The notes under the pieces: model-generated
The model's input: only the letters and a program-made list of their open reading frames with translations
Told to the model about the DNA's origin: nothing
Databases searched by the model: none
In this document: piece after piece, positions 40,275 through 51,787 of the stretch
How positions within the stretch are numbered: the first letter of the stretch is position 1
Layout of the letters: every line of letters starts with the position of its first letter
Origin: Hemerocallis citrina
Taxonomy: Eukaryota; Streptophyta; Magnoliopsida; Asparagales; Asphodelaceae
Direction: 5' to 3'
Length of the DNA stretch: 64,000 bases
Assembly (NCBI GenBank): GCA_017893485.1
Contig: CM030367.1
Coordinates: 145,131,767-145,195,766, forward strand
Made by a program: the position numbers and the translations under genes

Positions 40275-41269
40275 GAGCATCTGAGTCGTGGGCTAAATTG
40301 CTAATTTTTAGAAAAAATAGAAAAAAATGAGCTGCAGTTATTGGCTATTTATCCAAATTTTGAATTTTAGGAAAACAGTGGTCTGCTATATTTGGAATAA
40401 GATATAGGAATATGAAAAAAATAGCCGACGAAAAATGATCTTTCGTCCGATCGATTGGACGAAAGATCATCTTTCGCTGCTCTTTTTTTTTAAATTAACC
40501 TATTGGATGAGAAACCATTTTCCATCCCATTTTTTAATTTATAATAAATCGATCAGCCGGGAAATCATTTCCCGTCGGATCGATTTTATCATTTCCCGTC
40601 TGATCGATTTTATTTTAACAAAAATATGGGACGAGAAATGATTCACCGTCCCACAATTTAAATTGAAAAAAATAGGAACAAAAGATGATCCTTCGTCCCT
40701 CTATTTTAAAAAAAAATTAATAACATTATTGAATTACCTAAAAAAATTAGTGATGAGAGGGACGGCAAATCATTTACCGTTTGAATACTTTTTTGTTGAA
40801 TTTTTCTTGACGACGGAGACCGATTGTTCGTCCGTGCTCGATTTTTGAGCGCGTAATCAACGGACGAGGGATGATTCCCTGTCAGTGACTTTTTTTAAAA
40901 TAAAAAAACGTTTGACGGGAAATGATTTCCCGTCCGTTCGATTTTTTTATTTTTTTAATATAAAAAATTGACGGTCGGAGAAATCATTTCCCGTCCGTTC
41001 GATTTTTTAATTAAAAAAACGACGTACAGGAAATCATTTCCCATCCCTTCATTTTAAAAAAAATTAATAATCGAGCGACGGTAAATAATCCATCGTCCCT
41101 TCACTTTTAAATTAAACTTTTTTTAAGGAATGAGAGATTATGTTTCGTCTAACGATTTAATATTCGAAAAACTCAAAGTATGGGTTTGAACGACTGCAAC
41201 ACAAACTCAAAATTTCTATTCCTATATGCCAAATACCCAAAAATTGGGATTCAACGACTACAGATGCTC
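40275..41269. mobile_element. Palindrome-ladder element A, TAA target duplication
   Basis: Termini are GAGCATCTGAGTCGTGGGC at the left and ACGACTACAGATGCTC at the right, flanked by TAA (40272-40274 and 41270-41272). The GAGCAT ends and TAA duplication suggest a PIF/Harbinger-type non-autonomous element. The 995-bp body is a series of about a dozen different imperfect palindromes with the pattern GACG...GATNATC...CGTC, for example GACGGGAAATGATTTCCCGT near 40917. AT-rich spacers of roughly 50-70 bases separate them. Short ORFs are chance. Confidence 0.75.
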
Positions 41270-41291
41270 TAAAACCCAAAATTTCTATTCC

Positions 41292-41294
41292 TAA
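41292..41294 (+). repeat. Target duplication TAA (left) of element B
   Basis: TAA before GAGCATTTGTAGTCGTTGG. The partner is TAA at 48853-48855 after ACGATTACAAATGCTC. Confidence 0.75.
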
Positions 41295-41629
41295 GAGCAT
41301 TTGTAGTCGTTGGCTAAATTGCTAAATTTTGGAAAAAAATAGAAAAAAGATGCTGCAGTCGATGGCTATAGACCCAAATTTTGGGTTTTAGGAGAACAAT
41401 GGTTTGCTATATTTAGAAAAATATATAGGAATATGGAAAAAATAGCCGACAAAAGATGATCTTTCGTCGGATCGATCAGACGAAAGATCATCTTTCGCAG
41501 CTCAATTTTTTTAAAATTAACCTATTATACGGGAAATCATTTTCCCTCCCAAATTTTTTTAGATAAATCGATCAGACGGAAAATCATTTCCAGTCGATCG
41601 ATTTTTTAAAAAAAATATGGGATGGAAAA

Positions 41630-49796: not shown

Positions 49797-49957
49797 TTCT
49801 AATTAATTTGCTAGTCATTTACCATAATGTTCTTAAACTTCAAATTAATTTATATAAGACTTAGTTATTTACGAAAGGTGTCATTTATGTAACATAAAAA
49901 TTGGTTCCACTAGGCGTGCATCGCACGTGTAGAGTAGATTACTAGTCAAATCTCTAA

Positions 49958-50723
49958 TCTCTAATATAATATTATAATGGAAGAGTTGGGTTGTTATTTG
50001 CAGACTTCTGTAATTTGTAGACATTCATTCGATCATGTAATCTCAACCATTCATTTTTAAGTGGACGAAATTATATTAACCATTCATTTACTGAACTGCT
50101 GTTAATTACCATAATACTCAAAGTTCAAATTTATTTACAACATAAGTATTTACAAAAGTGTCACTCTCATATAAAATAAAAGTTTGTACCACCATGGCTA
50201 ACTAGTATTTTTCACGTGCGATGCACGTTTTGATAAGAGTTGAAGGATTTTCACGTGGGATATATGTGAAGAAGTAGTTTTGGAGTTGGATGTGCGTTGT
50301 ATGTAATTGGAAAAAATATTTTTAAGAAAAAGCTACGATTGGTATGTATAATGGACATGTTTATAAGTAGAATTTGAGTTTACGTGCAACATATATGTAT
50401 GTTTGATGTTAAAAAATATTAAAAATTAAATTTGCACGTACGTTACACGTTTTAAATAGGTAAAAAAAATTGCATGTTAGTTTTTGTGTAATTAATGGAA
50501 GAGTTTGAATTACACGTACAATGCACGGATTTGTATGTTAACAAATGACAACTCCAACTTTCCCATTATAATATCAGAGATGAGATTTCTAAAGAGTCTG
50601 TAATGAGTAAAGCGATGTCACAAGTTCGATACCAGATTATGTCTTATTATTGACTCTATGGAAAATAAAAAAAAATAAAAATTGATTAGAATTAGCATCA
50701 TCGCACGCATATTACTTTACTAG
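49958..50723 (+). mobile_element. Helitron with another Helitron nested inside
   Basis: Starts TCTCTAATATAATATTATAA and ends TCATCGCACGCATATTAC...CTAG at 50720-50723, followed by T. The minus-strand Helitron 50202-50580 interrupts it. The left part resembles sequence around 49830-49910. Confidence 0.6.
50202..50580 (-). mobile_element. Nested short Helitron, sister of 5111-5483
   Basis: In minus orientation it begins TCTCTGATATTATAATGGG (right end 50580) and ends with GTGCATCGCACGTG ... CTAG (50202-50205). Flanking A and T are intact. Its sequence parallels 5111-5483 module by module. Confidence 0.75.
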
Positions 50724-50989
50724 TTAAATTAAAGGGTTATTAAGTGAATAGCTTCGTTCTTCTGTGTCATGAATGATAATGTAAAGAGTAAAGTTCGAAT
50801 TCTGCATAAAGTTCGATTTCTTCTAATGGAATGTTTGCGTGAGCTCTGGTATTGCCATTATTGGAAACATGCCAACTTGTTTAGTACTCAATATGCGGGA
50901 GCTCTGGTAAAGCCGTTATTGGAAGGCAGATTCTATGTTGATGGGAGAGCTGGAGTTTATCCCTAACCAAACAAATTTTAACTTTATAA
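50724..50989. other. Short unclassified stretch
   Basis: Includes a 65-codon plus ORF (50769-50966) with a repeated phrase (GAGCTCTGGTA at 50840 and 50900). No domain is recognised. Confidence 0.3.
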
Positions 50990-51787
50990 GAGCATTTGTA
51001 GTCATTCTTGTCAAATTTTGGGTAAATAGCAATTAGAAATAGGAAAAAAAAGAATGTTGCTGCAGTCGTTCAAAACTATATTCGATTCGTCGTTTGTTTT
51101 TTTTTAAAAAGACGGAAGATTGTCTATCGTCTTGGAGTGTGCGGTTTGAAAAAATTATTAAAAAAAGCAAGGACGGGAGATAATCTCCCGTCAATCTCAC
51201 CACCCCATATGTGGACGGCGTATGATCAATCGTCTGCTTCAATTTTTTTTTTTTTAAAAATAAGCAAGGACAGGATATAATCTCCCGTCAATCTCCTAGG
51301 ACGGGTTGTAATCGGCCGTTCGTTTGTTTTGTTTCAATTTTTAAATTTTTTTTTTTAAAAAAATAAGCACTAAAAGTCAAAAAAAAAAAAAAAAAAAAAA
51401 AAAATCAAATTTTGGACTAGGACGGGAGATAATCTCCCGTCAATCTACTTTTGGCATCTAGCTAATATTTGCAATTGACGATGTATAATCGTCCGTCTCT
51501 GACATTTTTTAATTTTTTTTTTCTTTTTTCAAACGCTGTTTAATCCTTCGTCTCTCCTACTTTGTGTACGTCTCACCTACGAGACGAAGTTTTATCTTTC
51601 GTCAATTCTGACTGACGAAGTAAAATGGTTCGTTAGCTATATTTTGGTTATTGCCAAATCGTCTGCTATATTTGGCAACGAACTGTTCATCGTACACCCA
51701 AATTTTGGGTATTTGGACGACAACTGCAGCTCGTTTTTTTGATATTTTTCCAAATTTTGGGTATTTATCCCACGACTACAGATGCTC
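50990..51787. mobile_element. Palindrome-ladder element C, TAA target duplication
   Basis: Starts GAGCATTTGTAGTCATTC and ends CACGACTACAGATGCTC, with TAA at 50987-50989 and 51788-51790. The interior has palindromes such as GACGGGAGATAATCTCCCGT (about 51173, recurring near 51423) and ACGAAGTTTTATCTTTCGT. A poly-A run lies at about 51379-51403. Same design as elements A and B but with a different palindrome set. Confidence 0.75.

Follow-up and report, generated by a model that had tools for sequence, protein, structure and literature searches.

Ladders of fixed-length palindromes with covarying arms in putative Tourist-like elements of Hemerocallis citrina

Repeated short motifs inside the ends of DNA transposons have been described in several systems. 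According to excerpts of the papers cited here, the interior of some MtPH-A6-4 elements of Medicago truncatula is filled by 60-bp repeats in 2 to 35 copies, and G(N)5GTT, the start of the terminal inverted repeat (TIR), was used as a mining criterion for PIF/Harbinger miniature inverted-repeat transposable elements (MITEs) (PMC2213677). The subterminal repeats of CACTA elements diverge between subfamilies and have been linked to TNPA-like proteins (PMC2613891). The Myb-like protein of Harbinger3_DR binds a 9-bp subterminal motif (PMC9710019), and when the Myb-like domain of ORF1 was mutated no mPing excision was detectable in yeast (PMC2836001). Here we describe a 64,000-nt stretch (“the window”) of the Hemerocallis citrina assembly (3,775,421,867 bases in 701 contigs), in which four elements, D, A, B and C in their order along the DNA (Table 1), carry rows of a 21-bp palindrome of fixed length with covarying arms. 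In the open-licence literature that we searched, we found no MITE described as carrying ladders of fixed-length palindromes whose arms change.

The 21-bp palindromes and their arms

The unit of the ladder is a 21-mer, GACG and CGTC separated by 13 nt, together with an AT-rich spacer. The pitch is mostly 45-60 bp (about 50 bp; an earlier sequence-only reading of the window gave 50-70 bp), other spacings lie near 100 bp and a step of 31 bp recurs: it separates the first two units of A and is found also in C and in other genome copies. With at most two outer mismatches we counted 13 units in A, 10 in C and 4 in D. Ten or more hairpins per element had been proposed; not every unit makes a good hairpin. 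In A, the unit centred on 40924 pairs at 10 of 10 positions, those centred on 40437 and 40566 at 9 and the others at 8 or fewer. The GATNATC core that had been assigned to every hairpin occurs in some units only; the core is mostly AT-N-AT in A, its family copies and C, while D has different cores. A generic hairpin threshold found few hairpins (4 in A with 0.18 expected, 2 in C with 0.03, 2 in D with 0.06, and 1 in each of two pieces of B with 0.04 and 0.09), and for this reason fixed-frame units were used. When no more than one outer mismatch was allowed and three or all of the four middle pairs were required, the window held 12 units, every one inside D, A, B or C. The ladders are real, as the sequence-only reading had it.

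A more tolerant count, in which the middle four pairs were ignored, gave 255 units in 41 entries, 3 to 13 in each; the entries are 38 loci related to A, A itself and two pieces of B, and some are partial copies. Internal repeat number therefore varies between copies, as it does in MtPH-A6-4.

The same frame is abundant in the genome. GGACG-N13-CGTCC occurs at 45,027 sites compared to 3,948 for the reversed control, and GGACG-N12-CGTCC, the only other spacer length counted, at 2,278 compared to 1,042. Among 50 listed N12 sites, 30 belong to one unrelated repeat (GGACGCGCTGGCTTCGGCGTCC and variants), and several of the other 20 resemble ladder units that are one base short. All five places that we read from 53 listed N13 sites, hand-picked and all with well-paired arms, proved to be ladders of 2 to 7 units; four have the ATGCTC-TTA end and two have TTA on both sides (552 and 665 bp). 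Selection by termini gave a similar picture. The terminal pattern GAGCATCTGTAGTCGTTGGCTAAATTGC, with up to two mismatches, matched the genome 373 times (187 forward, 186 reverse; reversed control 0), and all five elements chosen by terminal sequence alone, one per terminal variant, carry 2 to 6 units. Three of the five are delimited with identical TAA/TTA; for two (L079 and L081) the far end was not found and the first 1,000 bases were taken.

Covariation of the arms was scored in the 47 distinct sites among the 53 listed, which had been chosen by their outer letters only. Watson-Crick pairs were present at 141 of 188 middle positions, whereas 10,000 shuffles of the arms gave 80.2 on average and never more than 102. 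In 21 of the 47 sites all four middle pairs were formed (shuffled mean 1.8, maximum 8), and these sites represent 12 arm types. The covariation score was 0.315 compared to 0.112 when shuffled (none of 500 reached it) and 0.06-0.12 with slid partners, and 59 cells were changed on both sides compared to 20.6. At one pair position we observed A-T 22 times, G-C 10, C-G 7 and T-A 4.

Matched differences were also seen between units of the same element. Across 14 elements, of which the eight family-A members are not independent, pairs were formed at 243 of 384 middle-four positions. When arms were re-paired within elements the average was 193.4, and the highest of 5,000 permutations was 228, below the observed 243. 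Five elements were individually significant at 0.05 (A 0.013, C 0.029, L028 0.004, L033b 0.046 and L046 0.008). Middle positions were paired in 59.7% of cases across 206 distinct family-A 21-mers (shuffled 46.3%, maximum 52.3% in 2,000). A second test, on 66 units from 13 elements, found all four middle pairs in 18 units; permutation within elements gave a mean of 10.6 and a maximum of 18, and permutation across elements a mean of 2.4 and a maximum of 9. The units of L033, for example, carry the complementary differences GGTACA/TGTACC and GGGACA/TGTCCC. On the other hand, seven units of L088 have identical inner arms with a varying central base, and the inner arms are identical in four of the five units of L086, which indicates that amplification also occurs. 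Inner letters were more similar within than between elements (0.70 and 0.55, 16 elements); the arms therefore behave as barcodes in several elements. The matched GCACAT barcode GGACGGCACATNATGTGCCGTCC occurs 1,091 times in the genome and the GCACAT/AAACAT chimera GGACGGCACATNATGTTTCGTCC once, a comparison in which the matched count is that of GCACAT only and not of AAACAT.

To follow decay we aligned 36 rows: A, B and 34 of the 38 loci, with L014, L024, L036 and L041 dropped because their matches were rearranged or double. We counted pairs complementary in the consensus in 10 of 14 units (those with at least nine aligned rows), one of which, near 40985, is out of register through an indel. This gave 1,496 intact cells, 298 one-sided changes, 21 two-sided broken cells and 21 compensated cells, with 13.4 compensated cells expected by independence. 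With seven duplicated loci removed (29 rows), the counts were 1,273, 255, 17 and 22, with 14.5 expected. G-C/A-T changes make up 19 of the 21 compensated cells (20 of 22 without duplicates), and a single unit near 40873 supplies 9 of the 21. Family-A copies show at most a small surplus of compensated changes, and we rejected compensated drift in single copies because one-sided changes dominate (298 compared to 21). The arms of these copies decay almost independently, as those of dead transposon copies should. Within the unit, the CpG letters (positions 3-4 and 18-19) belong to the positions with lower conservation.

The sequence-only reading had proposed compensated change rather than simple amplification. 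Compensation stands between families and in part between units of one element, but not in single family-A copies, and arm variation beyond chance coexists with the amplified units of L088 and L086. That reading had also named independent drift of both arms as its own refutation. The family-A copies display nearly independent drift; the standard was, however, too strict, as drift is expected in MITE copies that are dead, whether or not the sites function in those that still move.

Candidate binding sites and rival explanations

The reading that we favour, and hold to be somewhat probable, is that the ladders serve as arrays of symmetric sites to which a dimeric protein encoded by the element binds, either a Myb-like ORF1 protein or the transposase. 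Each 21-bp site would consist of two half-sites, (G)GACG...CGTC(C), a fixed 13 nt apart and repeated about every 50 bp, and a homodimeric protein of the mobilising element would bind every site. The outer GGACG would be a contact common to all families; the inner 4-6 bp would be specific to the family, and each monomer would read them once. A homodimer on a symmetric site would impose a fixed half-site distance, a common outer word and matched inner differences. The inner arms would then change together between families and the units of some elements would share one barcode, while dead copies would decay in each arm almost independently. In favour of this reading are the fixed frame, the covariation of the arms, the counts of matched and chimeric barcodes, the greater likeness of inner letters within elements and the coincidence of ladders with the termini. 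Precedents are the Myb-like accessory protein used by PIF/Harbinger elements, as in Harbinger3_DR, and the TNPA-like proteins linked to the CACTA repeats. It could be speculated, more tentatively, that the system works as lock and key: tens of thousands of fixed-frame palindromes, with one self-complementary barcode per family, would be read by family-specific homodimers, and barcode and protein would coevolve so as to block cross-mobilisation.

Several observations weigh against the binding-site reading. All 47 sites lie within the initial 2.9 Mb of a single contig, and two of five covariation measures were barely above shuffles (pairs changed on both sides, 6 compared to 5.6; further pair types, 19 compared to 16.3, reached by 45 of 500). 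Nine of the 14 within-element tests were non-significant; D, L029 and L034b lay under their permutation means and L013b equalled its mean, which is partly due to how little their units vary at these positions. Inner letters in C, L078 and L087 (0.54, 0.50 and 0.55) were no more similar within the element than between elements. Many units are imperfect and remain so across copies. Between rows of the family-A alignment the units (0.875) were more similar than the AT-rich spacers (0.781), but no more so than unit-free subterminal stretches (0.891 and 0.909). For helical phasing of the spacings, R was 0.31 at the best period of 10.2 and 0.30 at 10.5 (n = 39). Finally, the sequence-only reading had called for a transposase-bearing relative with the same termini. 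A DDE_Tnp_4 search listed 150 matches of 4009 candidates, and at 30 of these loci and in three further stretches (a wider one around L077 and two longer ones, L083 and L084) we found neither an autonomous partner nor a binding protein, no delimited element with GAGCATCTGTAGTCGT-like ends, and no unit in 125,045 bases.

One possible alternative is that the symmetry is mutational and without function. Template switching in hairpins would make a palindrome from one arm and copy changes across to the other, so that compensation would be a by-product. Such switching has been described, in the excerpt consulted, as a process that generates hairpins, maintains them and produces compensatory changes of several bases at once (PMC8794818). 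It could account for the unit-specific complementarity within elements and for the slight surplus of compensated changes in family A. That surplus is small, however, its G-C/A-T changes could come from CpG decay, and the outer GACG/CGTC is retained. Template switching should also yield other loop lengths, yet N13 sites outnumber N12 sites by 45,027 to 2,278. It may generate new symmetric sites but alone does not explain the rigid length, and we regard a purely mutational, functionless symmetry as unlikely. Another possibility is founder amplification, in which a few palindromes arose once, were tandemly amplified, spread with the elements and now decay, the arm differences between families being old accidents. 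The identical inner arms in L088 and L086 and the one-sided decay across copies are consistent with this, as are the variable-number 60-bp repeats known, from an excerpt, in MtPH-A6-4 (PMC2213677). It leaves unexplained, however, that the 47 sites include 12 different middle-arm types with every pair formed, all of exactly the same length and in the same outer frame, and that units of one element such as L033 differ in complementary ways; we consider it improbable.

The sequence-only reading had listed repeated transposase binding sites, foldback transcripts giving rise to small RNAs, and cruciform DNA as possible roles. Binding sites fit best. The rigid spacing speaks against the ladders existing mainly for foldback RNA or cruciforms. 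Folded as single strands, a check suggested in that reading, the elements do fold far better than 20 shuffles each (A as DNA, z = -14.9; C as RNA, z = -10.9), and transcripts of hairpin rows might feed small-RNA silencing or the DNA might extrude cruciforms. Much of the predicted pairing in A and C is, however, long-range, and a stem would tolerate a one-base change in length although N12 sites are rare. In an Rfam search of the window every family stayed below its gathering score. In addition, small-RNA precursors are usually longer than a 21-nt hairpin with a 1-3-nt loop. An RNA or cruciform function is therefore very improbable in our view.

If the inner arms are a specificity code, as under the favoured dimer model, the 45,027 sites (about 4,000 expected by the reversed control) would be a natural set of matched half-site pairs, and the evolution of DNA recognition by a transposon protein, and of isolation between families, could be read directly from them. 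If the lock-and-key proposal is true, the diversification of a dimeric protein's DNA specificity would be naturally recorded in the genome. Arm covariation in short DNA palindromes also means that covariation alone is no proof of RNA structure.

The elements and their surroundings

Table 1. Coordinates of the ladder elements in the window, with selected units and inserts
Feature	Position	Strand	Remarks
Element D	39666..40270		4 units, 21-mer starts 39884, 39934, 40045 and 40098
Element A	40275..41269	+	995 bp, TAA duplication, 13 units (at most 2 outer mismatches)
A, unit 1	40427..40447		GACGAAAAATGATCTTTCGTC
A, perfect unit	40914..40934		GACGGGAAATGATTTCCCGTC, 10/10 pairs
A, consistently imperfect unit	41077..41097		consensus 6/10 pairs over 35 aligned rows
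B, left piece	41295..41629	+	homologous to A
Insert 1 in B	41630..45502		LTR-like: TG...CA ends, 5-bp GAAAA duplication; outside ladder
B, middle piece	45503..46005	+	homologous to A
Insert 2 in B	46006..48729		TAGTG (CACTA-like) right end; possible GTT duplication; outside ladder
B, right end	48730..48852	+	homologous to end of A
Element C	50990..51787	+	798 bp, TAA duplication, 10 units

The shared GAGCAT ends and TAA duplications proposed earlier for A, B, C and probably D are present in A and C, which have GAGCAT...ATGCTC ends with TAA on both flanks, and in B, where TAA precedes the start (41292-41294) and follows the end (48853-48855). In D, whose arm type is close to GGAACTC, only the right end (40270) is clear and the left is degenerate. 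The element ends read GAGCATCTG or similar and are also written GAGCATCTGTAGTCGT or GAGCATCCACAGT. The TIRs match at 9 of 14 terminal letters in A, where the repeat is out of register past the ninth letter, and at 13 of 14 in C. Two units of C are perfect, starting at 51172 and 51421 (GACGGGAGATAATCTCCCGTC). No listed open reading frame (ORF) of at least 100 amino acids lies inside A, C or D. The 3-bp TWA target-site duplication and short TIRs without coding capacity are those of PIF/Harbinger (Tourist) MITEs, but letters 7-9 are CTG and not the GTT of G(N)5GTT, and the ends differ from the CACTA...TAGTG of CACTA elements. Judged from sequence features, D, A, B and C appear to be small non-coding, GAGCAT-ended DNA transposons of the Tourist-like (PIF/Harbinger-like) MITE type; we call them Tourist-like and leave formal PIF/Harbinger membership aside.

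Element B had been taken for a single ladder of 7.6 kb. It is instead an A-like ladder element of about 1 kb in three pieces, split by an LTR-like (long terminal repeat) and a CACTA-ended insert. The first insert, labelled by its ends only, is probably a solo LTR. The second has no left end matching its TAGTG right end, and inside it lie CCGGCG-type palindromes and exon-like pieces. We take these pieces to resemble a Rac/ROP GTPase (FFVDHPGAVPITTAQ / GEELKKTIGAPVYIECSSKTQQ in translation) plus the end of another gene, and this insert is possibly a gene-capturing transposon.

A DNA search of the genome with A gave 131 matches (best 40 of 4,530 candidates scored). Of the 38 related loci that we fetched, 18 were delimited and 20 were not; 12 had identical TAA/TTA duplications, 2 identical TCA and 4 non-matching flanks, counts in which not all loci are independent as several are duplicates by their flanks (L015/L022 on one side, L017/L026, L018/L020/L021, L031/L045, L033/L038 and L042/L044). 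The span of L013, one of the 12, probably covers two neighbouring elements. A related one-sided end, TTA-GAGCATCTC, is present at 6 of the 30 transposase loci. Inspected by eye on contigs C1 and C2, none of the 100 terminal matches listed of 373 lay within 10 kb of a listed transposase match. At L083 two copies of a PIF/Harbinger transposase gene (102 and 6531) stand tail to tail, each with an outer TTA-GAGCATCTCAAAACATACA end.

Hairpin clusters in other frames were seen at L009 (1844-2424, nine hairpins of the GCCGTTATT-NNN-AATAACGGC type), L040 (2266-2406, three hairpins, TCGGTCTTT-N-AAAGACCGA) and L023 (641-916, three hairpins of the ACTCGCCGTT type). These data suggest that ladders also exist in other repeats of the genome.

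Elements D, A and B stand in a row directly upstream of a pectin methylesterase gene, a pectinesterase with a plant invertase/pectin methylesterase inhibitor (PMEI) domain on the minus strand (37767-39542); D starts 124 bp from the start of the ORF, and the three elements could affect the promoter. Short palindromes of the ACGTGCATCGCACGT type are repeated between B and C and just past C (49319-51950), and 49763-49798 forms a 36-nt perfect inverted repeat with 50200-50235. Elsewhere in the window a piece of a hAT transposase with dimerisation and RNase-H-like domains lies on the minus strand (18202-18945). The window contains no tRNAs.

Relation to described elements

As far as the excerpts of the cited papers go, MtPH-A6-4 shares with the elements described here a 3-bp duplication, short TIRs and variable-number internal repeats. 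The Medicago repeat is, however, a 60-bp unit with a triplicated AAACNNCTTATT motif, while the unit here is a fixed-length palindrome, GACG-13-CGTC with an AT-rich spacer, whose arms covary; the main text of that paper contains neither “palindrom” nor “hairpin” (PMC2213677). The Krak elements of carrot are likewise Tourist MITEs of a plant, but the excerpted survey text is without “palindrom”, “hairpin” or “subterminal”, and the two are set side by side by description only (PMC8227079). Harbinger3_DR offers a PIF/Harbinger accessory protein acting on a motif inside the ends. Its motif is a single one of 9 bp in a fish element, and the excerpt describes no row of palindromes with changing arms (PMC9710019).

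CACTA elements carry arrays of short, subfamily-specific motifs inside their ends, and a match to the diversity of DNA-binding proteins has been proposed. They belong to another superfamily, and their motifs have a GC-rich and an AT-rich part and are not described in the excerpt as 21-bp palindromes (PMC2613891). By analogy, TNPA and its diverging subterminal repeats may follow the same logic as that proposed here.

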